DNA from: Phytoseiulus persimilis
Taxonomy: Eukaryota > Arthropoda > Arachnida > Mesostigmata > Phytoseiidae
Assembly (NCBI GenBank): GCA_037576195.1
Contig: CM075102.1
Span: 5,270,001 to 5,334,000, forward strand
Length of the DNA stretch: 64,000 nucleotides
Direction of reading: 5' to 3'
The notes beneath the pieces were generated by a model. It was given only the letters and a program-made list of their open reading frames with translations. It ran no database searches and was not told the DNA's origin. Both the position numbers and the translations under genes were made by a program. Every line of letters begins with the position of its first letter. Position 1 is the stretch's first letter. Shown here one piece after another: positions 2,859-60,614 of the stretch.

Positions 2859-3410
2859 CTACGTACATTCAACCCAGAAGCTCGTCCTTTTTTGACGTAA
2901 GAAGTTCGGTTTTTTAGGGTTAGGCAACGTTGGGCAGTAACTAGAAGTATGGGCATAGTCCCCTCCCTGGCAGTTGCACAAATGACACCTTAACCTCCTC
3001 AATGAAGGGCAGGCGACCGTGCCGTTCGGAGCACGCAGATTGTGTCCCTGGCTAACTACCCGAGGTTCGCCCTTCTTGCAACAGAACGGACAATACCCGA
3101 GCTCCCAGAGAGGCACAGTAACGATGCATTCCGCGAACTGTACCTTGGAATTCGGAGACACGGGTATCGGAGCCGAAAACTTCCATTCGTGTTTGGTCCG
3201 GAAGAGAGAAGGCATCCTCTTCTGGAGCTTCTTCCGGTCCCTTGATTGCCTCACTCGTGCTTCTTGCGGATTCGCTGCGAGCGGTGCGTGGTCGGTTGCT
3301 TCTGGTCCAAGATCTCGATTCCGGAGGAGGTCAATCTCGAAGATCAATCGTTCGAAGTCCTTCTGAGATTCAAGCGACTCTTTCATGGCAGCGCGAGCAG
3401 AGGCAAGCAT
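2859..3410 (-). CDS. Nanos-like RNA-binding protein, copy I
   Basis: A 183-residue ORF carrying a complete Nanos-type double CCHC zinc finger. Finger 1 uses C107, C110, H123 and C134 (CX2CX12HX10C). Finger 2 uses C142, C145, H154 and C159 (CX2CX8HX4C; the usual spacing is X7-8). Family landmarks are present: YCPFC, CPSLRRLRC and an AHT..YCP end. Nanos proteins bind RNA with Pumilio, repress translation of target mRNAs, and maintain germ cells and posterior identity; that role is family knowledge, not shown here. Residues 1-100 are not recognisable, as is usual for the fast-evolving Nanos N-terminus. The frame is intronless, ends 65 nt before AATAAA, and is intact in all three copies. By eye, about 11 substitutions and no indels separate copies I and II over 552 nt, roughly half of them silent. 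Confidence 0.85.
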   Translation of the reverse strand: MLASARAAMKESLESQKDFERLIFEIDLLRNRDLGPEATDHAPLAANPQEARVRQSRDRKKLQKRMPSLFRTKHEWKFSAPIPVSPNSKVQFAECIVTVPLWELGYCPFCCKKGEPRVVSQGHNLRAPNGTVACPSLRRLRCHLCNCQGGDYAHTSSYCPTLPNPKKPNFLRQKRTSFWVECT

Positions 3411-5168
3411 TTCGAGGCGGTAGTCTGGTCGAGGAGCGCAACAACCGTGTGAGCTCGTGGGTGTTATGACGCTGCTCTTATGCTGTGAGCGCTACAACTC
3501 TCTCCCCAACGCGGCTTCGTGTCGCCCCAGACGATGCTCATCTAGATTCGAGGTACCGTTGGAATTCGTCGGAAACCGCAGCTTCCGTCGGGGCTGCGGC
3601 GTGGTTCCGAGAGACTCGGAGTTTGTTCCGGAGCTGAATTCTTTCGAATGAAGTCCCAGCACCACACAGACGGCTGAGAAATCGGTTGGGCTCGCTCTTC
3701 GCCCTCGTGAGAGACCAAAACTTGAGAGGATCCAGGTCTGAACAGCAAAAATTATCACTGTAGGCAGAAAGCGCGGGCTTCGCGCGAATAGCGGGGCCCT
3801 GCCTCGAAGTCTCGAGCGGGACCCGCTCTCGCGGCGGAGGTTCCCGTTCAATCAAATATAGTCAACCACCGCCCGTCGGAGCTCTAACAGCCTTTGAGCC
3901 TTCTCCGCAGTTGGATAGGGTTTCACTGAAGCCCCAGAGAACATAATTCTGACTCAACCGACAGCGTCTGGGCTCAGAAGATCGTTGTAGAAGACGAAAA
4001 GCTCTTCAGAAGAAGCAGGCTTCGGCTCTGCGACGTTTCACTGCGAATAACTCTGTCTTGAATAAACACAAGTAAACGACGGGAATTCCGAGCTGATTGA
4101 TCCATGTACATTGATAGAAGCAGAGGGATTCTTCTTTTTGAGAAGGGCATCGAAAGCCGGTCAGATGTGCAGGCAAACGAGGATAGTGATCCGAAGTTAG
4201 AACGAAATGTTTTGGAAAAGACGACACATTGACGGCAGGTGATAAGAGCGGGCATCTACGAAGGCTCGACGGGAAACCAAATCTGAGGTGGATTCAGTGG
4301 ATAACGTCTCCAAAGCCAACGGGGTTGTGATCCCTGATGACTCGCGAAAACAGACGCTCCTCAAAAATCGTGAACCGTACTCGGAGAGCCGGAAAGGCTG
4401 GGTTGCCTCGGAATGCCACGAAATACGAAATCTTCCTCTGGCACATGTCAAGTCAGCTCACCAAGGTCGCACGGGAGATATCTGGCTCCTCCGGGGAGCT
4501 TCCGAGATGAGAGCAAACCTCTACAGTCTCTTACATCCGACAGCTGTAAACCCTCTGATCCTTGAGAATCTCTCGCTATGTTCGGCACTCTCCAGTTTTT
4601 AAGAAAGGATGCTCGCACCCAGGAATCGATTTCTCGAAAATTCCTTTCGAATCACGGCGAACCTACCTGATTGAGATCGTCCACCGGCAACACATGAGCG
4701 ATGGCGTTTGTCGGACGTCTCAGAGCATCTCGTGGTGCTTTGAGAATCCGGATCATCCTTGCTCTGTTATTCGTCTCAGCAGAGTTGAAACACTACGGAT
4801 CAGTGCGTTTGGCCCGTCTTGACGCGTTGATTCCATCGTAAGTTCGCCCTGGTTCTCCTCATCTTAACGATGGATCCCGCCGCTTGTATCGAATTAGTGA
4901 GAATCAAGGTCCCCAGACTTTCATCATGTTACCATTAGACAACATCAACATCGGCCACCGTTCACAGAGAACCGGGAAGAGCCCTCTGGAAATTCTGAGG
5001 GATGCCGCTCCAATCACGGAGAACTCGAGAATGTAGTATTTCGGGGAATTCCAGGAGAAAGCATGAGTGGATTTGCTGCAATCTGGATTTATTCCTGACA
5101 TAGACAGAGATATCCCCCACTGACATGGAATCTCCCTTATGAATCTTCCAAATTCCAAGTCTTCACAT
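3411..5168. other. Flank upstream of nanos copy I and remnant acidic-gene 3'UTR
   Basis: No convincing gene. The stretch parallels 44826-46556, including the 3'UTR of the acidic-protein gene with its AATAAA (minus strand, 5088-5093), but the coding part of that gene is missing. At about 5168 the sequence jumps into the R1-clade RT, so the acidic gene and everything up to the RT have been deleted in this unit. Any nanos promoter should lie near 3411-3700; I see no clear TATA or initiator there. Confidence 0.6.
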
Positions 5169-5930
5169 TCATCAGGACTCTTTAGACCTTGGCTATGGCC
5201 TGTCCAGTGGACATCTCAGCGCGGAATCCATGCTGGTTCTCTGACAGTACATCGTTTTGTTCCAACTCCGCAACAAGGCGGTGATGTATAACGTGTTCTG
5301 CAGCCTTTGAGATTGAAGCCAGACAGCTGATGGGACGAAACGCGGAGGATCCCGCTGACGAGCCAGGCTTGGGGACTAGGACAAGTCTGGCCGTCTTCCA
5401 CCCGACCGGCCATGTACCCGTTCGGAAGATGTGATTCATCATATCGTCGAATACAGCTGGAAATTCGCGCATAAAGAGCTTCACTGCCTCACCCGGGACA
5501 ATGTCAACCCCTGGTGCCTTGTGAGGCTCCAGCCTGCTCAGAAGGTATTCCCTGTCCCGTTTCCCAACGGGATCAAATTCGAGGTTCGCTTCAGGATCGA
5601 AACATGGAGTGCGCGGGGGGCTTCTATCAGGGAAGAGATCTGTTATGACACGGGCAGCGTCCGCCGGGCCAAGCGGGGGCTGGGGGCGAGTGAATTTGTT
5701 GGCCACGATCTTGTAGGCTCTGCCAGAGGGGTGCTGCCCCTCGTTAAGGTCCTCAAGGACCTGTCTCCAAGCGTTTGCTTTACTTTTGATTATCGTTCTA
5801 CGCAGAAGGGCCGCGGCGCGGCGGAACTCCCGCTCGAGCAATTCCTGGTCCTCGGGCCGAGCCCGGGTACGTGAGCGCTAGTAGACACGCCTGGCTTTGG
5901 GACAGAGTCGACGAGATTCGGCCACCTCAA
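5169..5930 (-). pseudogene. R1-clade reverse transcriptase fragment, copy A
   Basis: An open minus-strand frame (5841-5182, 219 codons) covers the pre-RT linker and the first RT blocks of an R1-clade non-LTR retrotransposon: a HKAPGVD block, W..ARLVLVPKPG, SSAFRPISCL and ENQHGFR. It is about 95% like 52557-53290 of copy B but stops at a deletion junction (5168/5169), so the catalytic YADD-type motif, C-terminus and 3' end are missing. The identical placement beside the inverted-repeat element in both copies shows the insertion predates the segmental duplication. Confidence 0.85.
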
Positions 5931-5990
5931 GGTGGTCTGATATCCGCGGGGGCTGATATCCAGCGAGAGTAGCAGAACGGAACCGGAAAA

Positions 5991-6263
5991 TCACGCTCGA
6001 GCCGAGGAGGGTACCGTCGCCGTGTGCTCCCGAAATGCTCCCGATCGGTCGGCTTTTTCGGATCTGTGTGTGTCAGCTCCCAATTGGAAGGACAGGACGA
6101 GGGCATTCTTCTGGATGCTAACATGAGGTTGGCAGATTTCTGCCTCAAAACGCTGCATGAGTTTAGATAATTCGTCCTTGTTCCGGCAATCTGGCTCCTT
6201 CGAATGTAGAAAGATTCGGCGACTGACAATGGGAGATTCTGAATTGTACAGCTCTGATTCCAA
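5991..6263 (-). CDS. Hypothetical 90-residue ORF in inverted-repeat left arm
   Basis: An intact minus-strand ORF starting MESELYNSE, also intact at 53361-53633 with about ten replacements. The opposite arm of the inverted-repeat element gives a related peptide on the plus strand (7453-7674) that shares the ESELYNSE start and a LVLSF block. The shared frame may simply reflect arm homology. No family recognised. Confidence 0.3.
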   Translation of the reverse strand: MESELYNSESPIVSRRIFLHSKEPDCRNKDELSKLMQRFEAEICQPHVSIQKNALVLSFQLGADTHRSEKADRSGAFREHTATVPSSARA

Positions 6264-10740: not shown

Positions 10741-12117
10741 ATGGCTGAGTTCAACCCAAACCAACTCAGAACGGCCCCAACCGTCGAGTTCTGTGACAAA
10801 TGCAGGGAGGAGTTGGCGGGATCAGGAATGACCCCCAACGAATCAATTCTGCTTGAATGTCGCGACTGCTTGCGGAGTGAGCGACTAGCTTACCGCCGCG
10901 AGCGGACTGCCGCTCTAGCCTTCATAGAGCGGCAGGCAGAAGAACTGAAGGCCAGAGATGCGGAACTGGTGAGCTTGAGAGGCCAAGTGGCAGCTCAGGA
11001 AGCCAGAATCTCTTATATGGACACACAGATGAGAGAAGCCGTATCAAAAACACCAGTGGAGTTCACGCTGCCACCACCGCGACCAGCCTACCTTGGCCCG
11101 GTCGTAATGGTGGTCACGGATCGCCACTGTGCTGATCTGTGCCCGGCAGGCCTGAACTTCTACAAGGCCCTCGACAACCACAAAGGACTACGGGTTAGGA
11201 AATTCCCAGTCAACTCAATTCCAATGCTTTGCCAAAAGGCCAAAGCGGAAGTCGAGAAGATGGGGTTGAACAACCCAATGACAGTAATCCTGTGGGGAGG
11301 GCTCGATGTCCTTCTAGAGCCGTCCTTCAAAAAGAAGGAAGCTATCGAAATGGCCAACGAGGCCATCTCCGAACTAGAGGGACACGAAGGAGTCCACAAG
11401 GTTATCTACACCACTCCGGATGTAGATGTCAAGAACTATGATCAGGCAATGTTCACAGACGCCTTGTTCGACAGTTTCACCTCCGAAGAGAATATCGACC
11501 TCAGATATATCTCGAGGAACCCTGCGTACAACGATGACAAAGGGTGGACAGCAGCGGGACGAGTCGAGGCGATAGTCAAGATGACCCGAGAAATCGGTCG
11601 TCACCTACTATTGACGGAAGCCGACGTCGAAAAGCTGCTGGAGGGGAACATATTGAGGCTACGCAATGATGCTAAAGCCAAGACGAGAACTGCGGACGAG
11701 GAGGAAAAAACCTCCGATAGAAATCCAAAGCCCTCAGTCTCGGCAAAAAATCCCGTGCGCCAACCCAGGCAAACGGAGAATCAGCACAGAGCCTCGACCT
11801 CCGGGCGATATCAACCTCGGAATCCAGATCAGCGCCAATTCTCGAAACCGTTCGCGCCCAAAGCGTACGGAAAAAAGAGAACGGTGGCTGACACTTCCAT
11901 GGATTCCGGGAAAGATGAACAAAAAAAGCGAAGGCCACAACAAGACCGACGCCAATCCCACACCCGGACGGAGGGCCAAAATCCAAATACAGTCACCGGG
12001 AGGAAGGAGGAAAACAAACCTCACCCTACAACTTCCACTCCACGGAACGACAGGAGGGGGGCAAACCAAGCCCAACTGGCAGCGAACCTCCAACAGGCCC
12101 TGAGAAAGAAAGACTGA
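10741..12117 (+). CDS. CR1/L2-like retrotransposon ORF1 protein
   Basis: An intact 458-residue ORF. In order: a CX2C-X18-CX2C zinc motif (C18, C21, C40, C43); a charged coiled coil at about 50-100; a globular domain at about 118-300 resembling the SGNH-hydrolase (esterase-like) domain of arthropod CR1/L2-type ORF1 proteins; and a Lys/Arg/Gln-rich tail at 300-458 suited to RNA binding. The SGNH block-I position reads VVTDRH rather than GDS, so the catalytic serine appears absent, and a GGLDV replaces the usual asparagine block. Such proteins coat element RNA during retrotransposition (family knowledge). ORF2 follows after a stop, in the same element. Confidence 0.75.
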   Translation: MAEFNPNQLRTAPTVEFCDKCREELAGSGMTPNESILLECRDCLRSERLAYRRERTAALAFIERQAEELKARDAELVSLRGQVAAQEARISYMDTQMREAVSKTPVEFTLPPPRPAYLGPVVMVVTDRHCADLCPAGLNFYKALDNHKGLRVRKFPVNSIPMLCQKAKAEVEKMGLNNPMTVILWGGLDVLLEPSFKKKEAIEMANEAISELEGHEGVHKVIYTTPDVDVKNYDQAMFTDALFDSFTSEENIDLRYISRNPAYNDDKGWTAAGRVEAIVKMTREIGRHLLLTEADVEKLLEGNILRLRNDAKAKTRTADEEEKTSDRNPKPSVSAKNPVRQPRQTENQHRASTSGRYQPRNPDQRQFSKPFAPKAYGKKRTVADTSMDSGKDEQKKRRPQQDRRQSHTRTEGQNPNTVTGRKEENKPHPTTSTPRNDRRGANQAQLAANLQQALRKKD

Positions 12118-15100
12118 CGGACCGCAGCCCCCAAGAAGCAAACCCCAACCGAGGAGGAAAATAAAACACACAGTGTTGACCTCAGAATCGGGGTCTTCAA
12201 TATGCAAAGGGGGAAAAGCGCAGTCAAATGGGAAAGTCTGAGGAAAGATCTATTAGAGGGACAGAGTGGGGGAACGCCATCACCATATGACGTCCTTCTC
12301 CTAACTGAAACCAACCTGATGAATATAGAAGAACCACCACATATACAGGGGTTCACTTTCCACGGTAGCAATCGATCTGGCCTCTCTGGCAACAAGTCGT
12401 CTGGTGGTACGGGAATACTTATCCGCTCCACCATTGATGAACCACGCTGGACACATAAAGGGGCTGATTTCATTGCTCTGGGGACTGATATAGAGGGCCA
12501 ACCTTGGATCTTCATATCAGTCTACGCCGTCATTACGATGGAACACAAATCGAACGAACACCAATTCAAAGAGATTGGGCGCATCATTCGAGAACACAGA
12601 ACGTCAGATGTCAAAATTGTGGTGGGGGGGGACATGAATGCCCACCATCCCAATTTGACGGGAGAACAGATAGACGTGGCAAACTTCTCCAAGAGTTAGC
12701 CAATGAAAACGATCTAATCATTCTCAATCTGACCGAAAAATGTAGAGGGAAGACCACACGAACCCAGGGTGGGATTTCCACTACAATAGACTACGTGCTA
12801 TGTAACTCCCGAACCTATCGGGAACTAACGTATATGCACATAGACGAAAAAAAGGAAATCCTTCATTGGAGTGATCATAACCTGATGACCCTACAAATGG
12901 GGAAACCAAGAGGCTGTGCACACCAAAGGAAGGTACGAGTGAAACTGTTAAGATCAAAAAGAGCAGCGGAGAAGGCCTCAGAGACTCTTATGACGAAGAC
13001 CAGGACAACACGGTCTGCCAGCTACAGAGATCTGATAGACACCCTCCAAAATGCTTTGAACGAAAACAGCAAACTCGTTAATCTGAACCCGAGGGAAAAA
13101 ATGTCCTCACCTGAGCTAACGAGACTATAGAAGCTAAGGAGGGAACAGAACCGGGAATGGAGGAGAGCGAGACGCCTAGGAACAGGCGCCGACAAGGCGA
13201 GACAACAATATAGACAGACACAAGACGCTGTCCGAAATGAGGTTGCCCGCTTGCTCGAAACCGAAAATCAGAGAATATATGATAAAATCATGAGGGCTCC
13301 AAGACAGGCAAAATCAAAAGCCTTCTGGGACCACATTAGGAGAAATGAATACAAACCCCCAAAAAAGCTGTGCGTGCTAGACGAGAAGGGTGACGACATC
13401 CAACCGACACAGATGACGTCACACCTTACGCTGGTAGCGAAAAGCTTACTGGAGGCAACAGGAAACCCCGAACCCCAGAGAGAATCCAATCTCCCAAGAG
13501 AACCGGTAAATCTGACCACAACTGTAGAGTGGGTGAAGCCGACACTCGTGTCGATATCCGCTTCATCTGCGACGGGGCCGGATAGAATACCAGCAAAAGT
13601 CCTCAAGGCACTAGACGACACGGGATACAACTACGTAACAGATGTCTTCAACGCTATTCTACAAGGTACCCATGAGATACCAGCAGAATGGAGGATAGGC
13701 AGGGTATCCCTGATTGAAAAACCAAACTCGATAAAGGGAAACCTCAAAACATACAGACCCATAACAGTATCAGACGTTCTGTATAGAGTTTTTACCAAAA
13801 TACTTGGGAAACATATACAAAAATGGGCGGAAGATACAGAGCAGCTATCAGAAATGCAAAACGGGTTCAGAAAGGATCGCAGAGGAGATGATAACATATT
13901 CATCTTGACAACTGCAATTGAAACCGCAAGATCCCATAAGAAAGGGCTTTATTGCGTTTTCCTAGACGCCACAAAAGCATACGACCGAATCGATCGGAAA
14001 AGCTATGGCGAACTCTAGAGGAGAGAGGGATGAGCAAACCACTGCTCGAACTCCTTAAATACATGTACGAGGATACCCGCGTTGTCCTCCGACATGGGGA
14101 CTACACGTCGGACGAAATGTCCATACCAATTGGACTCCGACAAGGTTGTCCACTATCTCCGATCCTATCCAGCCTCTACATTGCGAACCTTGAACGAGAA
14201 CTCCTGGCAACAGGACGAGGATTCAGATTCGCAAGGAAAGGCAATTTCTGGGATGTGAGAGAAAAAAAGTTCTTCACAATTCCCGGATTGCTGTTTGCAG
14301 ATGACCTAGTTCTGATGACAAACAGCATGGGAGATATGGAAACGCTCCTCGAGGTTACTACAAGGTTTGGGGACAACATGTCCATCAAATTTAACCCAGA
14401 GAAGAGCGGTGTAATGGTCTTCTCTCGACCAGCAGGAACCCATACTCCGGATAGAGATCTCAGGATACAAGGATTACCAATACCTATGGTGGAATCATAC
14501 AAATATCTAGGGATCGAACTATCTACCGACAGCGACCACTTGGCTAGACAATGGCCTAGACTGTCAGGAAAAGCCGACCAAGCAATCCAGAGACTAAACG
14601 CGAAAGCACTTTGGAGCTTCGACCGATTCGAAGTCTCCAAAATACTCTGGAAAGCTACAGCAGTCCCGCAGCTCACATACTGCAATGCAGTGATTACCAT
14701 GCCAAAAAGACTGAGAAACCACATAGAAGTCAGGCAGAGAGACGCGGGAAGATGGGCTCTTGGCATACCGCACTCCACTATAGCGAAGGAGTTCATTGAG
14801 GGAGAACTCGGATGGAGCTCCTTCGATGCCAGAGAAACCATAAGCAAAGTGATGTTCTTCGAGAGGATAAAACAAATGGATCCACATAGATGGCCAAAAC
14901 TTGTCCTCGAGGCCATCGAACTCACCAAAACCAGAATCGAAGCATCCGAGAGACTCAAAAAACTGAGCATGCAATTCGAATGTGGGGACATCCGACTGGC
15001 CAAGAACACATCCGGCAAGCTGATGTGGAAGACGTTCCGCAAAGAACTCAAACTGAGGGTGCGGAATAAATTTGACGCCACCTGGAGAGACAGGATGGAG

Positions 15101-15439
15101 TCCAAATCCACACTGAGTACATACCGACGATACAAAGAGACTAGAGGAATCAACCCCGGACTGTACGATAACTCCCGCGGAAGCCAACTCTTAGCGTTAA
15201 CCAGGGCAGGAATGCTGAACACCAAGACCCGGCAACACAACCGCGATTCCTCCATCGACATCAACTGTTCAAGATGTGGAGAACCCGAAACAGAAAGACA
15301 CGTAGTCTTGGGGTGCGAGGAACGAACTTTACCCCCAGAGGAGTTTCCCTTCCGAATTGGACTCACACCCAATAGCAAACATGAAGTTCTGCGAAAGACG
15401 AAGGTGACCCTAACTAACTGGGAGCGGCAAGATCTGTGA
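12118..15439 (+). pseudogene. CR1/L2-like retrotransposon ORF2 (endonuclease-RT), broken
   Basis: The reading path is nearly complete but interrupted. It starts with an APE-type endonuclease: FNMQRG, the catalytic E in LLLTETN, GDMNAHH, TIDYVL, and SDHN at about 12870. The RT follows: AEWRIGRVSLI, motif A FLDATKAYDRI, motif B GLRQGCPLSP, motif C FADD (about 14295) and KYLG. A C-terminal CCHC finger is C..CGEPETERH.....C. Breaks: a frameshift between about 12625 and 12680; a nonsense TAG at 13128-13130; and a one-base frameshift near 13998-14015, just after motif A. It cannot make a full protein as read. ORF1 directly upstream is intact, so the copy is fairly young or the breaks are sequence errors. 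Confidence 0.85.
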
Positions 15440-16300: not shown

Positions 16301-16970
16301 CGCAATACTATCCAAGTTCCCTTATCCTGAGAGGTTCCATCTCGAGAATGGATGGGATCAAAAAATGCTTCTCGTCCGCGTTGAGGATGGAAGATATGCC
16401 TTGCGCATGTACAGTGAAATTCGAGATGGTCTCCTCAATCATATGTCCGATGTCCGCGGCCATATTTGCGATGGAGAGCTGAGTCGTTCCATGCGGGAAA
16501 GGATCTTGGCATTCCTGAAATCGTCCTTCCCATAGTTTTACTCTTTTTTAATTTCGTGTCCCATTCTCTTTCGGTATTCAAACTCTTGGGATCGACGGTG
16601 GGACCGGGTTTCACAGCTTATTGGACGAGGAGAAGTCATGGCGTTTCGCGGGAGAGAGGAGGGACCTCCGAATCCGAGCACGGCTAAATCCCAGCCAAAA
16701 CCAGTACGCAGACGAGTGTTTCGGATGATGCGAGAGGGCTTTAGAGAGATTGATAATTACATTGGTCGCCGGAAACATTAGCAACTGATGAGTGCAAGGA
16801 CAAAAGTTCATCAGATGAAATAGACGAGAAGTGGGAATCTACCCTTGACCCTCCTGTCTTGGTTAGCCGTACATGATAACTTGTAATATGGATGTATCCT
16901 TATCCTTACTATACATAATCGGCTTGTTAGTCTGTCAGCTTGTCAGTTTGTCCGCACTCCGTCGAGAATT
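16301..16970. other. Unassigned stretch before the minisatellite
   Basis: No gene recognised. Just before the array, short TGTCAG/TTGTC words repeat at 16927-16952. Confidence 0.4.
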
Positions 16971-17687
16971 CTGGGACCAATCTGACCATACTCCCCAAAG
17001 TCTGGAGAGGTGATTCCGGGACCAATCTGACCATTACTTTCAAACTTTGTAGGGGTGAATCCGAGACCAATCTGAGCATTACTTTCCAGCTCTGGAGGGG
17101 TGATTCCGAGACCAATCTGAGCATTACTTTCCAACTCTGGAGGGGTGATTCCGAGACCAATCTGAGCATAACTCTCCAACCCTGTAGGGGTGATTCCGAG
17201 ACCAATCTGAGCATTACTGTCCAACCCTGGAGGGTTGAATCCGAGACCAATCTGACCATACTCTCCCAAGTCTGGAGAGGTGATTCCGGGATCAATCTGA
17301 CCATTACTTTCAAACTTTGGAGGGGTGATTCCGAGACCAATCTGAGCATTACTTTCCAACTCTGGAGCGGTGATTCCGGGACCAATCTGACCATTACTTC
17401 CAAACTTTGGAGGGGTGAATCCGAGACCAATCTGACCATACTCTCCCAAGTCTGGAGAGGTGATTCCGGGACCAATCTGACCATTACTTTCAAATTTCGG
17501 AGGGGTGATTCCGAGACCAACCTGAGAATTACTTTCCAACTCTGGAGGGGTGATTCCGAGACCAATCTGAGCATTACTATCCCACTCTGGAGGGGTGATT
17601 CCGAGACCAATCTGAGCATTACTCTCCAACCCTGGAGGGTTGAATCCGAGACCAATCTGACCATACTCTCCCAAGTCTGGAGAGGTG
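16971..17687. repeat. 45-bp minisatellite, array A1
   Basis: About 16 monomers of 45 bp (landmarks GACCAATCTGA, CTGGAG, GGTGATTCCG) with no length changes. The last monomer is interrupted by the R1-clade insertion and resumes in array A2 in the correct phase. Confidence 0.97.
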
Positions 17688-17805: not shown

Positions 17806-19042
17806 TAAATGCATTCAGTGACACAAAAACTACATCTAAAAGCATCCTCACAGAGGTCCCAATTAGAATAGCCTTCTTCGCAGAAAACAATAGCAAGGAC
17901 GCATCCACCCTCACCAGGCTCAGCGCACAGTACCCACTACTAGGGAAGGCCATAAAGAGACTAGGCGTAGGTAAGCGGGCGACCCTCACCCTGGACTCAG
18001 AACTCGAGACAGAGGAGGAAGAACCAAGCGCGGATGCAAAGACACCGAGAAAACTCATAGTCGCCAAATGCAACACAGACGAACTCTCCATCATAACCAC
18101 ACTAAAAACAATAATCAACTCCCTCGAAGAAATAAACCAACAAACTCTGACCATACACCTGCCAAACAACATCGACGTCATAGACTGCTCAAAAATAGCA
18201 GAGTCCTGTCTCGCAGGCAGAAGCCTGACGGCCGAGCTGTGTGCAAAGGGCAGAGGAGCAAGCAAACGGGGCGTCTCAAAAAACAGAAACACGATCATCA
18301 TACAAAAACAAAAAGGTAAAACGTACGCGGACACACTGAAGGAGATCAAACAGGCCATAGGACCGAACAACCTGGGTGAAAACATACACAAGATACAGGA
18401 AACAAGGGACGGAAACGTCAGAATACGCATCAACGGGAACACAGCTGACGCCACAGATCAAATCACGAACATAATCAAAGAAAAAATAAATACAGAAGTC
18501 GAAATGGAGAAACCAACGAAGACACTCATCACACTCCATGACCTAGACGGCGCAACGGAAAACGGGGAAATAGAATCCACGCTCAGACAACTTTTCTGCT
18601 CCCCCGAGGACGAAATCAAAATCTTTGAACAAAATGAAAGCAGAAATGGCTGCTACACGGTGAGAATACTCCTCCCTAAACATATTGCCGACACCATGAT
18701 CAAACAAAACAACATCCGTATAGGCCTGAATTCCTGTCGAATAACCGGAAAAATCTCAATCCCTGTCTGCCACAACTGCCTGGGGCTCGACCACGTTGGA
18801 AAATACTGCAGAGATCCCCCTTCGACAACAACCAGATGCTTCAGATGCGATAACACTGGACACTCCCCGAAAGAATGCAGAAACACACCCACTTGCAAAA
18901 CTGTAACACATCCGGACACTCTATCAACTCGCGAGAATGCCCAACCTACAGGAAACTAATAGCCGAAAAGATCACCAGAAACCACGAGAAGAAACCCAGA
19001 GAACACAACGACAGGAACCAAAATACCACAGCTCCAAAATGA
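17760..19042 (+). pseudogene. R1-clade gag-like ORF1, 5'-truncated, one frameshift
   Basis: The frame is open from inside the fold-back to about 18900 with no ATG until 18504, so the true start is lost. The protein has an acidic/basic middle (ETEEEEPSAD, then KRGVSKNRNT) and three C-terminal zinc knuckles: CX2CX4HX4C at about 18769-18810, another at 18838-18880, and a third at about 18894-18940 that is split by a one-base loss in an A-run near 18897-18900. After the shift the frame ends at TGA 19040-19042, overlapping the ORF2 ATG (ATGA). This three-knuckle Gag and overlapping stop/start are typical of R1-type elements. Confidence 0.85.
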
Positions 19043-22025
19043 ATCAGCTAAATCTCACCAAAAACAACAGCATAAAAATCCTACAAATAAATCTCCACCG
19101 CAGTGTGCAAGCATGGGTTTTAGCGCGGAAAACAGCAATAGATCTCAAAGCAACAATCATAGCAGCAACGGAACAAAACATCAGATCCTCCAGAAACCTC
19201 CTAGTCAGTGGCGACAACACGGCCGCCATGATATATAAGACTGGAACATCCCCTTTCGAGTCGGGCTCCGCCGCGAATTTTGTGTGGGCCAAAACAGATG
19301 ACACCGTATTATATAGCTGCTACCTATCACCAAACATCACCAAACCAGAATTCTGCGACACGCTCACACAGATTCAAAACAGCATCCACTCCCACGACGA
19401 AAAAACACCCATAGTTATCAACGGCGACTTCAACTCGGCCTCAATCCTGTGGGGCAGTAGAGACACGTACGCAAGGGGGAAAGTGCTCGAGGAGTGGCTT
19501 GCCACAAACGAACTGACCATAATGAACCAAGGAAACAAACCAACTTGGCAGAGGGGAAACTCCGCCACCCACATAGATCTCACAATCACGAACAAAGCCG
19601 CAACTAACAGAATAACAAAATGGAATGCGCTTGCAAACCTATAAACGCTCAGTGACCACAACTAGATCACCTTCGAAGTTGATCTTGGATGCACAAAACA
19701 CAACTCCACGTATAAAACTAAGCCCACGTACGATCCAAAGCTCTTCGAATCAAAACTAGCAGACCTCGTCGAAGAAAATAAACCAAAAACCCTCACACAA
19801 ATGTGCGACACCTTAACAAAAGCAACCAAACCATCGAAAGTCTTACAGCATCCAGAAAACCACGGCGACCTATACTGGTGGAACGAAGAAACGGCGGCAG
19901 CCAGGAGGGCAACCACAGCGGCTAGGAGGAAATACACACGGGCACCACACCAAAACAGAACCACAGAAAAACTCGACTACGAAATAGCCAGGAAGGAACT
20001 GAACACCAAAATAACGGAAGCGAAAATCAGAGCCTGGAGAGAGCACTGTAACGCAGTTGAACATAATCCATGGGGTACCGGATACAAACTAGTCATGGAC
20101 AGACTAAACACTCCCCGAACCAAAATACCACCAAAACTGAAGCTAGCAGCCATCAGAACCTTATTCCCCACACATGACACCACGCAACACACAATGACAC
20201 ACCAGACAATAACTTCACACCACCCGCGAATCACGAAAGAAGAACTACTCGAAACCTTAGAAAACATGGCAAGCAACGAAGCCCCACGCCCAGACGGAGT
20301 CCCGCCTTACATTATCAAGTCAGCCATCAAATCACACACAGATATCTTCACAAAATACTTCAACGACCTACTATCCGATGGAACCTTCCCAAAAAACTGG
20401 AGAACTGCCAATGTCATACTCATACACAAGCCAGGTGAACCCAAAGAAAATCCTTCATCCTATCGCCCTATTTGTCTACTAAACACAATCTCGGAAACAG
20501 TCGAGAAGATAATCAACAACCGACTACAAAAGGAGCTAGAATCGAACAACCTCCTATCACCGAGGCAATTCGGCTTCCGCAAAAAAAGCTCCACCATCAT
20601 GGCAATACAAAAGACCCTAGAACATCCCATCATGGAACTACAAAAACTAGAGACAACAGAAACATCGCAATCATAGTACTCCTAGACGTTAAGAACGCTT
20701 TCAACTCCGCAAGCTGAGCCCACATACACAAATCACTAAGCAGCCTGAATATCTCAACATACTTACAGAGGACGGTTAAGTCGTATCTGTCGGGCAGGAG
20801 GGTGAGCTGCGACGGGAGGGAGCACAAAATGACCGCGGGAGTTCCGCAGGGTTCGGTCCTTGGACCAACCCTGTGGAACGTCATGTACAACCCGGTCCTG
20901 GAACTGCGGCTCCCTGAAGCGGCAAACTTGGTCGGCTACGCTGACGACCTCGCACTGATAGTAACAGCTAAGACGGAATCCACACTAAAAAACAAAACAA
21001 ATGCAGCACTCAATACTATAAGCGCCTGGATGAAACAAAACAAGCTCGAAATAGCCCCACGGAAATCGGAAGCACTATTCATCACCAAAAAAATCAAACT
21101 TGAGCCTATCTACATACATATCAAAGGACAACAAATAGAAATTAAAAAATCAGTGAAATACCTAGGGCTGCACTTGGACAGCAAACTCACTTTCTCACAT
21201 CACCTCAAACAAACAGCAATTAAAGCCAGAAGAATATCGAACAACCTCGCAAAAATCATGCCGAGAACCCACGGCGCGGAGGAGGAGAAACGATGCCTCC
21301 TCGCATCCGTTGCCTGGTCTATAGTCTGCTACGCCTTCCCAATCTGGCACCATATACTCGACAAGAAAACTTTCGCCAACCTCCTTCTCTCGATACAAAG
21401 AATCACAGCCATCAGAATATGCAGAGGCTACAGAACCATCTCAACGGACGCTCTCTTGGTAATCAGCCGGGATATACCCTGGGACATAAAAATAAGAACA
21501 ATAATGCACGTCAGACAACAAAACCAAAACACACAGAACACACGAAATAATATCACCTTTGAGGACACGTACATGACCACATGGCAAACCCAGTGGTCAA
21601 CACAAAACCTTAACAAAGGGGCATGGACGCGCAGACTCATCCCACAAATCGAACCCTGGATAAATAGGAAACACGGCAAATTAACATACTGGATAACCCA
21701 AGCGATCTCGGGACACGGACAATTCCAAAGCTACCTCTTCAACATGAACATAAAATTCAGGCCCTAATGCGTGCAATGCAACGCAGCGGAAGATGATACA
21801 CCGGAACACACCTTCTTCCACTGCAACAAATTTGCACAACCCCGTTCGACACTAACAAACACACTAAATCAACCCTTCACCCCCGAAAACATCATATATC
21901 ACATGCTAACAAGCCAATACACAAGGAATCTCATCGCCACATACATCACAGACACATTGAAAACCAAACATAGCTATGAGAAAGCGTGGTTAGAAAGGAC
22001 ACACACGACCACCGCCACACAATAG
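19039..22025 (+). pseudogene. R1-clade ORF2 endonuclease-reverse transcriptase, broken
   Basis: Starts at the ATG of an ATGA overlap. Endonuclease motifs: LQINLHRS, AATEQN (catalytic E), INGDFNS, IDLTIT and SDHN. RT motifs: NWRTANVILIHKPG, SSYRPICLL, FGFRKKSST, motif A LLDVKNAFNSA, motif B GVPQGSVLGPTLWN, motif C YADD (about 20938) and VKYLGL. The C-terminus has a CX2C...HX4C finger (21771-21830). Breaks: TAA 19642-19644 and a TAG about 30 nt later (either side of SDHN), a frameshift between about 20600 and 20660, TGA 20715-20717 right after motif A, and TAA 21765-21767 before the finger. Two of the nonsense changes look like simple G-to-A or C-to-G changes. Confidence 0.9.
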
Positions 22026-22340: not shown

Positions 22341-25300
22341 AGTCTGGAGAGGTGATTCCGGGACCAATCTGACCATTACTTTCAAAATTTGGAGGGGTGA
22401 TTCCGAGACCAATCTGAGCATTACTTTCCAACTCTGGAGAGGTGATCCCGGGACCAATCTGACCATTACTTTCAAACTTTGGAGGGGTGAATCCGAGACC
22501 AATCTGACCATACTCTCCCAAGTCTGGAGAGGTGATTCCGGGACCAATCTGACCATTACTTTCAAACTTTGGAGGGGTGATTCCGGGACCAATCCGAGCA
22601 TTACTTCCCAACTCTGGAGGGGTGATTCCGAGACCAATCTGAGCATTACTTTCAAACTTTGGAGGGGTGATTTCGAGACCAATCTGACCATACTCTCCCA
22701 AGTCTGGAGAGGTGATTCCGGAACCAATCTGACCATTACTTTCAAACTTTGGAGGGGTGATTCCGGGACCAATCTGACCATTATTTTCAAACTTTTGAGG
22801 GGTGATTCCGAGACCAATCTGACCATACTCTCCCAAGTCTGGAGAGGTGATTCCGGGACCAATCTGAGCATTACTTTCCAACTCTGGAGGGGTGATTCCG
22901 GGGCCAATCTGAGCATTACTTCCCAACTCTGGAGGGGTGATTCCGAGACCAATCTGAGCATTACTTTCAAACTTTGGAGGGGTGATTTCGAGACCAATCT
23001 GACCATACTCTCCCAAGTCTGGAGAGGTGATTCCGGGACCAATCTGACCATTACTTTCAAACTTTGGAGGGGTGATTCCGAGACCAATCTGACCATACTC
23101 TCCCAAGTCTGGAGAGGTGATTCCGGGACCAATCTGACCATTACTTTCAAACTTTGGAGGGGTGATTCCGAGACCAATCTGACCATACTCTCCCAAGTCT
23201 GGAGAGGTGATTCCGGGACCAATCTGAGCATTACTCTCCAACTCTGGAGGGGTGATTCCGGGGCCAATCTGAGCATTACTTCCCAACTCTGGAGGGGTGA
23301 TTCCGAGACCAATCTGAGAATTACTTTCCAACTCTGGAGGGGTGATTCCGAGACCAATCTGACCATACTCTCCCAACTCTGGAAGGATGATTCCGAGACC
23401 AATCTGAGCATTACTTCCCAACTCTGGAGGGGTGATTCCGAGACCAATCTGAACATACTCTCCCAACTCTGGAAGGATGATTCCGAGACCAATCTGAGCA
23501 TTACTTCCCAACTCTGGAGGGGTGAATCCGAGACCAATCTGACCATACTCTCCCAAGTCTGGAGAGGTGATTCCGGGACCGGTCTGAGCATTACTTTCCA
23601 ACTCTGGAGGGGTGATTCCGAGACCGATCTGACCATACTCTCCCAAGTCTGTAGAGGTGATGCCGGGACCGGTCTGAGCATTACTTTCCAACTCTGGAGG
23701 GGTGATTCCGAGACCAATCTGACCATACTCTCCCAAGTCTGTAGAGGTGATGCCGGGACCAATCTGAGCATTACTTTCCAACTCTGGAGGGGTGATTCCG
23801 AGACCAATCTGAGCATTACTTCCCAACTCTGGAGGGGTGATTCCGGGACCATTCTGAGCATTACTTCCCAACTCTGGAGGGATGATTCCGAGACCAATCT
23901 GAGCATTACTTCCCAACTCTGGAGGGGTGATTCCGGGACCAATCTGACCATTACTTTCAAACTTTGGAGGGGTGATTCCGAGACCAATCTGAGCATCACT
24001 TTCCAACTCTGGAGAGGTGATTCCGGGACCAATCTGACCATTACTTTCAAACTTTGGAGGGGTGATTCCGGGGCCAATCTATGCATTACTTTCCAACTCT
24101 GGAGGGGTGTTTCCGGGACCATTCTGAGCATCACTTCCCAACTCTGGAGGGGTGATTCCGGGACCAATCTGAGCATTACTTTCCAACTCTGGAGGGGTGA
24201 TTCCGGGACAATTCTGAGCATTACTTCCAAACTCTGGAGGGGTGATTCCGGGACCAATCTTAGCATTACTTTCCAACTCTAGAAGGGTGATTCCGGGGCC
24301 AATCTGAGCATTACTTCCCAACTCTGGAGGGGTGACTCCGGGACCAATCTGAGCATTACTCCCCAACTCTGGAGGGGTGATTCCGGGGCCAATCTGAGCA
24401 TTACTTTCCAACTCTGGAGGGGTGATTCCGGGGCCAATCTGAGCATTACTTTCCAACTCTGGAGGGGTGATTCCGGGGCCAATCTGAGCATTACTTTCCA
24501 ACTCTGGAGGGGTGATTCCGGGGCCAATCTGAGCATTACTTCCCAACACTGGAGGGGTGATTCCGGGGCCAATCTGAGCATTACTCTCCAACTCTGGAGG
24601 GGTGATTCCGAGACCAATCTGAGCATCACTCTCCAACCCTGGAGGGGTGATTCCGAGACCAATCTGAGCATTACTTTCCAACCCTGGAGGGTTGAATCCG
24701 AGACCAATCTGACCATACTCTCCCTAGTCTGGAGAGGTGATTCCGGGACCAATCTGACCATTACTTTCAAACTTTGGAGGGATGATTCCGGGACCAATCT
24801 GAGCGTTACTTTCTAACTCTGGAGGGGTGATTCCGAGACCAATCTGAGCATTACTTCCCAACTCTGAAGGGGTGAGTCCGGGACCAATCTGAGCATTACT
24901 TTCCAACTCTGTAGGGGTGATTCCGAGACCAATCTGAGCATTACTCCCCAACTCTGGAGGGGTGATTCCTAGACCAATCTGAGCATTACTTCCCAACTCT
25001 GGAGGGATGATTCCGAGACCAATCTGAGCATTACTTCCCAACTCTGGAGAGGTGATCCCGGGACCAATCTGAGCATTCCTTTCCAAGTCTGGAGGGGTGA
25101 TTCCGGAACCAATCTGAGCATTACTTTCCGACTCTGGAGGGGTGACTCCGGGACCAATCTGAGCATTACTTCCCAACTCTGGAGGGATGATTCCGAGACC
25201 AATCTGAGCATTACTTCCCAACTCTGGAGGGGTGATCCCGGGACCAATCTGAGCATTCCTTTCCAAGTCTGGAGGGGTGATTCCGGGACCAATCTGAGCA

Positions 25301-33187: not shown

Positions 33188-33612
33188 TTGACCTCGGAAT
33201 CACCCCTGCAGAGTTGGAAAGTAATGGTCAGATTGGTCTCAGAATCACCCCTCCAGAGTTGGAAAGTAATGCTCAGATTGGCCTCGGAATCACCCCTCCA
33301 GAGTTGGACAGTAATGCTCAGATTGGCATCGGAATCACCCCTCCAGACTTGGAAAGTAATGGTCAGATTGGTCTCGGAATCACCCCTCCAGACTTGGAAA
33401 GTAATGCTCAGATTGGCCTCGGAATCACCCCTCCAGACTTGGAAAGTAATGCTCAGATTGGCCTCGGAATCACCCCTCCAGACTTGGACTGTAATGGTCA
33501 GATTGATCTCGGAATCACCCCTCCAGACTTTGAGAGTGATGCTCAGATTGGCCTCGGAATCACCCCTCCAGAGTTGGAAAGTAATGGTCAGATTGATCTC
33601 GGAATCACCTCC
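33188..33612. repeat. 45-bp minisatellite, array A5 (inverted)
   Basis: About 9-10 monomers in the A4 orientation. Confidence 0.95.
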
Positions 33613-42189: not shown

Positions 42190-42807
42190 GCATCCCCAAT
42201 CTGGCAAGATCATCATCGGCTGAGCAACGGGAAAGAGTTGTTGAGGAGGTAAATACTCTGCTCGGGGTGTCATGGAGCTCAGGGAGAATGAAGCGCAGAA
42301 TAGGAAATACATCGTTGAAGTTTCATTGAGCGAGACGAGCCCCGTTCCCCCAAATGTTCGCAGGCGTTGTTGAACCAGGCAACGAATGAGCTCTCCGGGA
42401 TTGTGGGAGCCCAAAGGTCGCAGCGATTCTGTATGAATTTTCTGGCTTCTTTACATTCAATGTTCGCTCTCCGGAATGCAGCCAACTTCTCACACATGTC
42501 GCGGTATCTTGGGAATAGCTTCTCCTAAGTTTTCAAGATCAGCAAGGGGTGGATTATGTGCTCTTCTTGTGGTCGAATCGAAGAACTCGTCGTACAGGTG
42601 CCAAACTAGGGAAGCCTGTTCGAACACGGAGATAGCGATCCGTTTCGCCTGGATCACCGAGACAGAGTCCTCGGAAACCACAGCGCATCCCCTCAAGAAG
42701 AGTAGATTCTCCACGGCCCCACCACGCACCTCCCACGGGCAAAGTGGCTCACCCGCTCTTTGGTTGATCGAGGGCATATTCAAACGCCGCAGCCTCCTCC
42801 TGGCCAT
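42190..42807 (-). pseudogene. Unidentified coding-like block, copy II
   Basis: Same two overlapping minus-strand frames as 790-1394 (42807-42490 and 42497-42279), with the same break. The upstream frame is identical to copy I in all 105 residues. Downstream, copy II has short insertions (for example AGCTCAGGG at about 42274). Function unknown. Confidence 0.35.
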
Positions 42808-44202
42808 CCGGACCCGAAAAGACCCCGCTTCTGGGCGCCGAGGCGTCTCCCGAGAGCTTCAGACGCAGATCAAGGCTAACACGCTCTGGACACACGGGTG
42901 ATCATCTTAGGACTCTTGAGGTCTGAGCATAGAAACTGAGGACTGAAGATAGAACATTACTGTCGAAACCGGCATTTGACGGGTTTTGACGGGCACTGAG
43001 GAAGCATGCCGGGTTGAACTCTGTAAGACCATGTGTGTCAGAGTACAACGTCGATTATTTCACCCCCGATTACTTCAATCATTCGAATTCCAACCTTGAT
43101 AATTTTATCTTCAATTACGGTGCGAACCCTATTATTCCAACCTTGATTCTTCCACCTCTTTATTATTTCAACCTAGTTCTGCATCGCTTGGTTGAAATAA
43201 TCGAGGTTTCACTATTCTTTCACCATCGGTCGCTCCAAGGGGTCGGGTGGGGCCGAGCGTCGATCCGAAAGGCGGTCAGTATCCAAACGGAAGTCTGAGT
43301 ACTCTGTACGTGAATGTGTTGGGATAACGATATTGTGTAAAGTAAATAAGTTCTCAACCTGAGCCCCAACCCACCCCGAGCCATACGGCCCCTAAGGTTC
43401 AGTTCCAACTTCGCTGGTAAACCCTTGATCAGATCTCCCTAGATGGAGCCGCAGCAATGATGAGCACAATGGAATGAATTGATTGAAAGTCCAACGGTAT
43501 CTATCTCAATGGCTGTGGTCCGCTACATCGGACGGCGACACCCTTATTATCCGCACACACTTCAGTGAGCGCTCGAATCGATGTCTAAGGAGTGCTCTGG
43601 AAGCGACGGGAAACACTCCCCGGCTGGTGAGGAAGGCTCGACTGGAATCTCAAGCATGGCGCGGCCATGTCTTTGGCTCTGAGTCAAATGGGACGCTCTT
43701 CATTCCTCGAGTCGTAGGATCAGCTTCCGGCTCTTTCTTTAACCTCTTTCGGCCCCTGCTGATTGGTACGTTCGCCCTGTGACGACACTCCGCGGCGAGC
43801 TCCACGCTTGATGAGTTCTTGCGAGACACGTCCTTGTCTAGTCCTGCAATCGCATATCCGTGGTAGCACGGCGCCGTTGAGCACATCGCTAGTTGGCCTC
43901 CGTGAAGCTTTCGCCCGACTTAGTTGGGCTTCTTTTCGTCATGACGCCACTCGCGAATGTGTTTGCGATCCTTAGCGAGCATGCGTCACTGGATCCACCG
44001 AACAAATTGGGGTACTCCTGTTCTTCCATTTCTCAGGAGCAGTCTGGTTGGAGAAGGAGTGTTACAAATCCAAGAAGGGCCAGCTGTCCTCCAAAGCATT
44101 CCCAGCGTGGATTTATCTTGGAGAGTTGACTTCAGTGACCGGTCGCTCACACCAAAGAAAACTCTGGAGAGGTAGTTTGAGTTTGATTCCACGAGACATA
44201 TC
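42808..44202. repeat. Segmental repeat flank, copy II
   Basis: Parallels 1395-2787. Includes the hairpin (43162-43173/43190-43201) and a shortened version of the 2088-2471 ORF (43650-43886). No additional gene. Confidence 0.6.
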
Positions 44203-44208
44203 TTTATT
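44203..44208 (-). promoter_or_regulatory. Polyadenylation signal of nanos-like copy II
   Basis: AATAAA on the minus strand, about 65 nt past the nanos-like stop. Confidence 0.6.
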
Positions 44209-44273
44209 TCAGGTATCATTTTGATGGCGCCCTGTCAGAAATATTGTACAGTCTGTTTCTGATAGTTCAGAAG

Positions 44274-44825
44274 CTACGTACATTCAACCCAGAAGCTCGT
44301 CCTTTTTTGACGTAAGAAGTTCGGTTTTTTAGGGTTAGGCAACGTTGGGCAGTAACTATAAGTATGGGCATAGTCCCCTCCCTGGCAGTTGCACAAATGA
44401 CACCTTAACCTCCTCAAAGAAGGGCAGGCGACCGTGCCGTTCGGAGCACGCAGATTGTGTCCCTGGCTAACTACCCGAGGTTCGCCCTTCTTGCAACAGA
44501 ACGGACAATACCCGAGCTCCCAGAGAGGCACAGTAACGATGCATTCCGCGAACTGTACCTTGGAATTCGGAGACACGGGTATCGGAGCCGAGAACTTCCA
44601 TTCCTGTTTGGTCCGGAAGAGAGAAGGCATCCTCTTCTGGAGCTTTTTCCGGTCCCTTGATTGCCTCACTCGTGCTTCTTGCGGATTCGCTGCGAGCGGT
44701 GCGTGGTCGGCTACTTCTGGTCCAAGATCTCGATTCCGGAGGAGGTCAATCTCGAGGATCAATCGTTCGAAGTCCTTCTGAGATTCAAGCGATTCTCTCA
44801 TGGCAGCGCGAGCAGAGGCAAGCAT
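44274..44825 (-). CDS. Nanos-like RNA-binding protein, copy II
   Basis: Intact 183-codon frame. All eight zinc ligands are kept at the same residues as copy I (C107, C110, H123, C134; C142, C145, H154, C159). Differences from copy I include K10R, F24L, a two-residue change at about 38-39, H74Q and S156Y; only the last falls in the zinc domain, between ligands H154 and C159. The acidic-protein gene lies 1.7 kb upstream on the same strand. The same spacing in unit III suggests the pair was duplicated together. Whether this copy is expressed cannot be told from sequence. Confidence 0.85.
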   Translation of the reverse strand: MLASARAAMRESLESQKDFERLILEIDLLRNRDLGPEVADHAPLAANPQEARVRQSRDRKKLQKRMPSLFRTKQEWKFSAPIPVSPNSKVQFAECIVTVPLWELGYCPFCCKKGEPRVVSQGHNLRAPNGTVACPSLRRLRCHLCNCQGGDYAHTYSYCPTLPNPKKPNFLRQKRTSFWVECT

Positions 44826-46458
44826 GTCGAGGCGGGAGTCTGGTCGTGGAGCGCAACAACCGTGTGAGCTCGTGGGTGTTATGACGCTGCTCTTATGCTG
44901 TGAGCGCTACAACTCTCTCTCCAACGCGGCTTCGTGTCGCCCCAGACGATGCTCATCTGGATTTGAGGTACCGTTGGAATTCGTCGGAAACCGCAGCTTC
45001 CGTCGGGGCTGCGGCGTGGTTCCGAGAGACTCGGAGTTTGTTCCGGAGCTTAATTCTCTCGAATGAAGTCCCAGCACCACACAGACGGCTGAGAAATCGG
45101 TTGGGCTCGCTCTTCGCCCTCGTGAGAGACCAAAACTTGGGAGGATCCAAAACTGAACAGCAAACATTATCACTGTAGGCAGAAACCGCGGGCTTCGCGC
45201 AAATAGCGGGGCGCTGCCTCGAAGTCTCGAGCGGGACCCGCTCTCGCGGCGGAGGTTCCCGTTCGATCAAAGATAATCAACCACCGCCCGTCGAAGCTCC
45301 AACAGCCCTTGAGCCTTCTCTGCGGCCGGATAGGGTTTCGCTAGAGCCCCAGAGAACATGATTCTGACTCAACCGACGGCGACTGGGCTCAGAAGATCGT
45401 TGTAGAAGACGAAACGTTCTTCAGAAGAAGCAGGCTTCGGCTCTGCGACGGTTCACTGCGAATAACTTTGTCTTGAATAAACACAAGTGAACCACCGGAA
45501 TTCCAAGCTGATTGATCCATGTACATTGATAGAAGCAAAGGGCTTCCTCTTTTTGAGAAGGGCATCGAAAGCCGGTCAGATGTGCAGGCAAACGAGGATA
45601 GTGATCCGAAGTTAGAACGAAATGTTTTGGAATAGACAACACATTGACGGCAGGTGATAAGAGTGGGCATCTTCGAAGGTTCGATGGGAAAACAAATCTC
45701 AGGTGGATTCAGTGGATAACGTCTCCAAAACCAACGGGGTTGTGATCCCTGATGACACGCGGACACAGACGCTCCTCAAGAATCGTGAACCGTACTCGGG
45801 GAGCCGGAGAGGCTGGGTTGCCTCGGAATACCACGAAATACGAAATCTTCCCCTGGCACATGTCAAGTCAGCTCACCAAGGTCGAATGGGAGATATCAGG
45901 CTTCTCCGGGGAGCTTCCGAGATGAGAGCAAACCTCTACAGTCTCTCACATCCGACAGCTTTTAACCCCTCTACTCCTTGAGAATCTCTCGCTATGTTCG
46001 GCTCTCTCTCTCGATTGTCCACCAGCAACACATGAGCGATGGCGGTTGTCGGACATCTCAGAGCATCTCGTGGTGCTTTGAGACTCCGGATCATTCTTGC
46101 TCTGTTATTCGCCTAAGCAAAGTCGAAACTCAACGGATGAGTGCGTTTTGCCCGACTTGACGCGTTCAGTCCATCGGGAGTTCGCTCTGGGGAACCTCCT
46201 CATCTTAGCGATGGATCCTGCCGCTTCGATAGAATAAGTTTTCGGCTCGTCCGTGAAAGCTAAATTGGTGAGAATCAATGTCGCTAGACTTTCATCATGT
46301 TACCATTCTCCAACATCATCATCGGCCACCCTTCACAGAGAACCGGGAAGAGCCCTCTGGAAATTCTGAGGGATGCCGCTTCGATCACGGAGAACTCGAA
46401 AATGTAGTACTTCGGGGAATTCCAGGAGAGAGCATGAGTGGATTTACTGCTATCTGGA
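44826..46458. other. Interval between nanos copy II and the acidic gene
   Basis: Parallels 3411-5087 and 60615-62086. No gene recognised. The part nearest nanos should hold its promoter, but no core motif is convincing. Confidence 0.5.
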
Positions 46459-59801: not shown

Positions 59802-59991
59802 AACTCCTGTTCTTCCATTTCTCAGGAGCAGTCTGGTTGGAGAAGGAGTGTTCCAACTCCAAGAAGGGCCAGCTGTCCTCCAACGCATTCCCTGCCTGGA
59901 TTTATGTGGGAGAGTTGACTTCAGTGACCGGTCGCTCACACCAAGGAAAACTCTGGAGAGGTAGTTTGAGTTTGATTCTACGAGACATATC

Positions 59992-59997
59992 TTTATT
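59992..59997 (-). promoter_or_regulatory. Polyadenylation signal of nanos-like copy III
   Basis: AATAAA on the minus strand, about 65 nt past the stop. Confidence 0.6.
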
Positions 59998-60062
59998 TCA
60001 GGTATCATTTTGATGGCGCCCTGTCAGAAATATTGTACAGTCTGTTTCTGATAGTTCAGAAG

Positions 60063-60614
60063 CTACGTACATTCAACCCAGAAGCTCGTCCTTTTTTGAC
60101 GTAAGAAGTTCGGTTTTTTAGGGTTAGGCAACGTTGGGCAGTAACTATGAGTATGGGCATAGTCCCCTCCCTGGCAGTTGCACAAATGACACCTTAACCT
60201 CCTCAATGAAGGGCAGGCGACCGTGCCGTTCGGAGCACGCAGATTGTGTCCCTGGCTAACTACCCGAGGTTCGCCCTTCTTGCAACAGAACGGACAATAC
60301 CCGAGCTCCCAGAGAGGCACAGTAACGATGCATTCCGCGAACTGTACCTTGGAATCAGGAGACACGGATATCGGAGCCGAAAACTTCCATTCGTGTTTGG
60401 TCCGGAAGAGAGAAGGCATCCTCTTCTGAAGCTTCTTCTTGTCCCTTGGTTGCCTCACTCGTGCTTCTTGCGGATTCGCTGCGAACGGTGCGTGGTCGGT
60501 TGCTTCTGGTCCAAGATCTCGATTCCGGAGGAGGTCAATCTCGAAGATCAATCGTTCGAAGTCCTTCTGAGATTCAAGCGATTCTCTCATGGCAGCGCGA
60601 GCGGAGGCAAGCAT
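60063..60614 (-). CDS. Nanos-like RNA-binding protein, copy III
   Basis: Intact 183-codon frame with all eight zinc ligands. Differences from copy I include K10R, L44F, S56P, R59K, P83S-type changes before the finger and S156H within it. Position 156 is S, Y or H in the three copies, the only variable site inside the zinc domain. The 3' flank is cut 262 bp past the stop by the junction to gypsy gag (59801/59802), but the AATAAA is retained. The acidic-gene copy 3 lies 1.6 kb upstream on the same strand. Confidence 0.85.
   Translation of the reverse strand: MLASARAAMRESLESQKDFERLIFEIDLLRNRDLGPEATDHAPFAANPQEARVRQPRDKKKLQKRMPSLFRTKHEWKFSAPISVSPDSKVQFAECIVTVPLWELGYCPFCCKKGEPRVVSQGHNLRAPNGTVACPSLRRLRCHLCNCQGGDYAHTHSYCPTLPNPKKPNFLRQKRTSFWVECT

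Follow-up and report, generated by a model that had tools for sequence, protein, structure and literature searches.

A stretch of 64,000 nucleotides of the Phytoseiulus persimilis genome (assembly GCA_037576195.1, contig CM075102.1, positions 5,270,001 to 5,334,000 of the forward strand), hereafter the window, carries three Nanos-like open reading frames (ORFs). Are these working genes that have been amplified, or passengers of duplicated DNA? With moderate confidence, we favour a genuine amplification, specific to this lineage, of Nanos-type genes that code for protein. All three ORFs lie on the minus strand and consist of 183 codons followed by a stop; the plus-strand frame at the same coordinates is interrupted by stops. 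An earlier sequence-only reading of the window had described three intact Nanos-like genes with eight zinc ligands and an AATAAA signal. This description holds for each copy, and each has a zf-nanos domain above the cut-off. The features are given below by window position, with the corresponding positions on the contig (called C2 hereafter) in brackets.

2859..3410, minus strand: Nanos-like ORF copy 1, 183 amino acids, zf-nanos E-value 2.9e-14 (C2:5272862-5273410 without the stop codon)
2931..3092, minus strand: zf-nanos domain of copy 1 (CCHC-CCHC, amino acids 107-160), Pfam match (C2:5272931-5273092)
2788..2793, minus strand: AATAAA of copy 1, 66 nt past the stop
44274..44825, minus strand: Nanos-like ORF copy 2, 183 amino acids, zf-nanos E-value 7.2e-14 (C2:5314277-5314825 without the stop codon)
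44346..44507, minus strand: zf-nanos domain of copy 2, Pfam match (C2:5314346-5314507)
44203..44208, minus strand: AATAAA of copy 2, 66 nt past the stop
60063..60614, minus strand: Nanos-like ORF copy 3, 183 amino acids, zf-nanos E-value 6e-14 (C2:5330066-5330614 without the stop codon)
60135..60296, minus strand: zf-nanos domain of copy 3, Pfam match (C2:5330135-5330296)
59992..59997, minus strand: AATAAA of copy 3, 66 nt past the stop

The three window ORFs score 52.2-53.4 bits against zf-nanos (PF05741) over amino acids 107-160, for a curated Pfam cut-off of 27 bits. The eight zinc ligands are C107, C110, H123, C134, C142, C145, H154 and C159. Copies 1 and 3, the two that were searched, align with the Nanos chains of the solved structures 5kl1, 5kl8 and 3alr, the last of which we take to be zebrafish Nanos. 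Because of these matches to zf-nanos and to solved Nanos chains, the ORFs are not chance frames. The likeness to Drosophila Nanos (5kl1, 5kl8) and to 3alr comprises tandem CCHC fingers with eight ligands and an F-T-Y RNA pocket: by our own count on the 5kl1/5kl8 alignment, anchored on C319 and C354, residues F109, T155 and Y158 correspond to F321, T366 and Y369 of the fly protein. According to the accessible part of the source (PMC4995099), these three Drosophila residues form the pocket for -1U, the base that precedes the Pumilio site; the same part reports that C319Y and C354Y abolish repression, and that the C-terminal region of Nanos, whose helix contacts Pumilio, diverges beyond Diptera. 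Recruitment of CCR4-NOT by the N-terminus is a further property of Nanos proteins (PMC4003280). The proteins studied here differ from these references by a short N-terminus before the domain (106 amino acids) and by the number of domain places in the genome, at least 57 against a few. In addition, finger 2 reads C-x8-H here and C-x7-H in the fly. A motif scan of the genomic zf-nanos places, which misses broken domains, recovered 50 domains in unbroken form; the spacing of the ligands is identical in all 50, and each has this extra finger-2 residue.

The copies in the window belong to a larger array. C2 is 52.0 Mb long, in a genome of 181.0 Mb assembled in 127 contigs. From a protein search of this genome we obtained 62 matches, 12 of them full-length, with 90-100% identity, and all at C2:5151682-5355347. 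Over this span of about 204 kb, seven copies on the plus strand are followed by five on the minus strand. The translated frame is open in each of the 12 copies, the eight zinc ligands and the three RNA-pocket residues are unchanged in all of them, and none has lost its AATAAA. The sequence-only reading had proposed a tandem array of three copies. The amplification stands, but the simple head-to-tail layout gives way to 12 copies in two orientations, within a genome-wide set of at least 57 places.

The array arose by segmental duplication. After repeat masking, self-comparison revealed duplicates in direct orientation at a distance of about 40 kb (one of 11.3 kb with 97.0% identity, one of 12.6 kb with 99.4%), together with inverted ones linking the two halves of the array. 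Measured from one copy, the block common to 11 of the 12 copies runs from about 300 bp upstream to 260 bp downstream of the ORF; the copy at 5347586 has a 3' flank that differs from about 110 bp past the stop. For most copies, homologous flanks run for kilobases. The duplicated segments within the window are the following.

789..4592, no strand assigned: segmental duplicate around copy 1, 95.9% identity to 42193-46008
42193..46008, no strand assigned: segmental duplicate around copy 2, partner of 789-4592
59803..60910, no strand assigned: core common to the three copies, here around copy 3, with 96.8% identity to 2599-3708 and 96.5% to 44014-45123

A 141-codon ORF on the plus strand (1063-1488 and 42476-42901) encodes the same protein in both segmental duplicates; its first copy, the one scanned, gave no hit to Pfam at E 0.01. 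Assembly artefacts, which had been named at the outset as something that could undo the case, or uncollapsed haplotypes have a negligible probability of explaining the 12 copies, because 11 of the 12 coding sequences (CDS) are distinct, with 51 variable sites, both orientations occur on one single contig, and the flanks differ.

The amplification extends beyond the array. Using the Pfam model, we found zf-nanos at no fewer than 57 places in the genome, all 57 listed being above the cut-off. Eight are single, and the other 49 fall in five groups on C2 and on two further contigs, C3 and C53.

C2 array: 12 places
C3:28.26-28.28 Mb: 15 places, with a spacing of about 1.8 kb
C3:31.61-31.74 Mb: 14 places
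C3:36.02-36.08 Mb: 5 places
C53: 3 places

Retrotransposon pieces do occur in the window, and the Nanos domain might have been cargo spread by a mobile element, but this is very improbable given that most places are grouped rather than scattered and that most array copies share kilobases of homologous flank. In the array at C3:28.255-28.280 Mb, 14 of the 15 copies are open frames; the copy at 28274618 carries an internal TGA. The motif scan covered the DNA of 56 of the 57 places, all except C3:35.742 Mb. We built a domain tree from 33 distinct sequences, including one from the fly, in which many forks are unresolved because it rests on only 56 columns. The C2 array copies form one group (100/99), which sits in a larger group with the genes at C3:31.6 and 36.0 Mb and with C2:3.998 Mb (85/90). 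Elsewhere in the tree lie C53 and the array at C3:28.26 Mb (99/99), and these separate groups suggest that Nanos amplification occurred more than once. The usual Nanos partner, PUF, is unamplified: a genome search for PUF (Pumilio-type) repeats gave 15 matches, which fall at just two loci (C2:49.178 Mb and C3:32.679 Mb).

We then considered whether the array copies are under selection. By Nei and Gojobori counting, the ratio of nonsynonymous to synonymous differences per site (pN/pS) is 0.49 inside the array; for the groups at C3:31.6 and 36.0 Mb, compared each within itself and with one another, the ratio of the corresponding substitution rates (dN/dS) is 0.23-0.36. We also used a custom-written one-ratio codon model, whose estimates of dN/dS (omega) are approximate since FastTree branch proportions were held fixed. 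With this model, omega is 0.254 in 12 C3 genes (twice the log-likelihood difference, 2dlnL, of 69.3 against 1) and 0.323 across 26 genes from different subfamilies (2dlnL of 118.1 against 1). Under two further codon-frequency settings, the array value stays at 0.7, and the values of 0.25-0.30 of the C3 genes are rejected for it (2dlnL of 12.6-19.3). The array copies are more weakly constrained than the C3 copies, and some may therefore be redundant or in the course of being lost.

Amino-acid conservation among the 12 array copies is confined to the domain: 3 of its 54 codons are amino-acid-variable, against 26 of the 106 codons before it (P = 0.0024). Silent-variable codons are distributed alike, 4/54 in the domain against 11/106 before it (P = 0.78), with 0/23 after it. 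The N-termini of the array copies are probably relaxed. No stop interrupts the 12 frames, where 2.9 would be expected from 75 parsimony changes (P0 = 0.057 for none). Likewise, no indel was found in them, where 4.5 would be expected from an indel-to-substitution ratio of 0.060 in six duplicate pairs (P0 = 0.011; 0.049 for frameshifts alone). Both the conservation within the domain and the absence of stops and indels argue against plain decay. Outside the array, broken relatives are found: C2:5.519 Mb, a close relative, is split over two frames and has lost one ligand, the relative at C3:31.643 Mb has lost ligands, and the one at C3:31.704 Mb contains stops. Decay is therefore visible where it occurs.

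Several results weigh against a functional amplification. The array omega of about 0.70-0.72 does not reject 1 (2dlnL of 1.5-1.8), and its range at a 2dlnL of 3.84 is roughly 0.45-1.2. The codon model finds no regional contrast, with omega of 0.89 for codons 1-105 against 0.78 for codons 106-183, neither differing from 1; the second region takes in codon 156 and the variable tail, and 4 of the 23 codons of this tail after the domain are amino-acid-variable. The CDS diverges no less than its flank (3.1% pairwise against 2.7% for the 299-bp 5' flank), and changes per base are alike in the CDS (75/552), upstream (42/294) and downstream (15/106). Gene conversion can inflate the 75 parsimony changes; counted from the 51 variable sites, the expectations for stops and indels drop by one third.

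These results, together with the identity of up to 99.4% over 12.6 kb between copies and the already broken relative at C2:5.519 Mb, would suit young segmental duplicates that passively carry a once useful Nanos gene, most of them redundant and drifting, and intact through youth and gene conversion. Such passive duplication is possible but on balance unlikely, in view of the conservation confined to the domain in the face of even silent variation, and of the 12 frames free of stops and indels. The sequence-only reading had named a dN/dS near 1 with no transcripts as a result that would speak against it. On dN/dS the outcome is divided, with an omega of about 0.7 from which 1 is not rejected on one side, and domain-restricted conservation with uninterrupted frames, which oppose decay, on the other. 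The selection picture for the array is mixed: the copies are intact and the constraint is partial.

Codon 156 adjoins T155 of the RNA pocket and is variable. Among the 12 copies it encodes H six times, S four times, F once and Y once, and silent alleles are absent; in other genomic copies, residue 156 is F, L, I, V, R, A or T. Of the 75 parsimony changes in the array, 7 fall on this codon, for a mean of 0.41 per codon (Poisson x 183 codons, 5e-5). Counted at its minimum of 3 changes, however, it is not unusual, the expected number of such codons being 0.54. This excess is a lead only, because gene conversion can explain the difference between 7 and 3 changes. A germline conflict, in which Nanos copies amplify by biasing transmission or by countering such a bias and in which residue 156 diversifies RNA reading, would account for this variability within and outside the array. 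It would also fit the amplification of one germline-type family in several clusters while PUF stays unamplified, and the rejection for the array of the low omega of the C3 genes. As the codon 156 excess vanishes at the minimum count and omega is never estimated above 1, we consider this conflict quite improbable. In a broader form, Nanos would be a large, repeatedly amplified family reading different RNAs through the variable residue beside the pocket, with an unamplified Pumilio, and maybe driven by germline conflict (e.g. over transmitted chromosomes or sperm); this too is improbable.

The chromosomal setting bears on another suggestion of the sequence-only reading, that the copies could lie on a sex, B or germline-restricted chromosome. 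On C2, the array occupies 5.15-5.36 Mb. Three contigs, C1 (54.7 Mb), C2 (52.0 Mb) and C3 (38.9 Mb), together account for 145.6 of the 181.0 Mb, and C2 also holds, at 2.0 Mb, the nanos domain that scores highest genome-wide, as well as a PUF locus at 49.2 Mb. The array is therefore in chromosome-scale sequence and not on a small contig, which tells, though not strictly, against both a B and a germline-restricted chromosome; such a location is not supported. The sequence-only reading was thus right on the gene and on the amplification, and is in this sense partly supported; its chromosome idea is without support.

It had also described the surroundings as transposon-rich and repeat-rich, and we confirmed both features, with pieces of retrotransposons lacking long terminal repeats (non-LTR) and a 45-bp minisatellite. 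Near the copies, RVT_1 was detected in 5 of the 10 ORFs scanned (one under the curated cut-off) and an endonuclease in one. The ORF sets of two non-LTR retrotransposons lie between Nanos-like copies 1 and 2, at 10741-15439, where the reverse transcriptase match is broken across two frames, and at 18504-21767, with a reverse transcriptase plus an endonuclease match. The minisatellite occupies 22343-30870, 16968-17687, 31404-32098 and 33185-33609, with about 190 units in the longest run. Since it is stop-free in several frames on both strands, it creates false ORFs of up to 648 codons. The long ORFs at 16.9-17.7, 22.3-30.9 and 31.3-33.8 kb are made by this repeat and were rejected as genes; the one minisatellite ORF scanned against Pfam gave weak matches only, under the cut-off. 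Other repeat-masked runs lie at C2:5143185-5147860 and 5160082-5161981. The ORF at 58997-59590 matches PF23309 (DUF7083) with 26.6 bits, just under its 27-bit cut-off. The GC content of the window is about 0.51, and the available part of the source on another predatory mite, Metaseiulus occidentalis, gives 52% (PMC5467014). Paternal genome elimination is known from such mites, but no reading given here draws on it. Genome searches recovered no SL1 leader with up to 1 mismatch, no exact TTAGG run of 25 bases and no COX1, the mitochondrion being either absent from the assembly or missed. A tra-2 primer of P. persimilis (PMC9656875) has no site with fewer than 2 mismatches; at 2 mismatches there are 4 sites against 2 for the reversed-pattern control, and neither of the two inspected is accompanied by a second primer site. 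With a clathrin primer of M. occidentalis (PMC4203830) we located a gene on C1 that, judged by eye, encodes clathrin heavy chain; four primers together differ from it at 16 of 84 bases, one of them (6 of 21) scarcely above background, and this speaks against M. occidentalis.

The amplification of Nanos-type genes can be summed up as follows. A Nanos-domain gene has spread to no fewer than 12 positions on C2 through segmental duplications, which range from kilobases to more than 10 kb and comprise inversions and a tandem step of roughly 40 kb; the DNA in which this happened is rich in repeats. On C3, related genes make up clusters of their own. The reading frames, the zinc ligands, the residues of the RNA pocket and the poly(A) signal have all been preserved. 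By transfer of function from Drosophila, the encoded proteins may do what Nanos does: bind RNA together with Pumilio and repress germ-line target mRNAs, the bases that precede the Pumilio site being read by the zinc fingers. The amplified genes are probably germline-expressed. Copy number would then raise the dose, or permit divergence in the N-terminus and in RNA reading.

Amplified multicopy germline gene families occur in repeat-rich or sex-linked arrays. The C2 array resembles them in having short intact genes within segmental duplicates of both orientations; the resemblance shown is one of layout, not of sex linkage or testis expression. Several nanos paralogs are also found in other animals: the available parts of the sources report four nanos homologs in Bombyx mori (PMC13120685) and four nanos genes in a grouper (PMC5412271). 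The likeness is that of paralogs of one germline regulator, but there are more than 10 times as many domain places here, and they are clustered. An amplification of such size was not found among the results of a search of the open-licence literature on nanos duplication, expansion or copies, which is a weak negative. Nanos is a widely used germ-cell mark, and the compared animals have three or four genes, as far as the available parts of these sources go. A genome with at least 57 Nanos-domain places, in several clusters, would constitute a natural experiment on the limits of dose and on the diversification of RNA reading. It is also a caution that in certain lineages "nanos" may not serve as a unique germline marker or to supply germline promoters.

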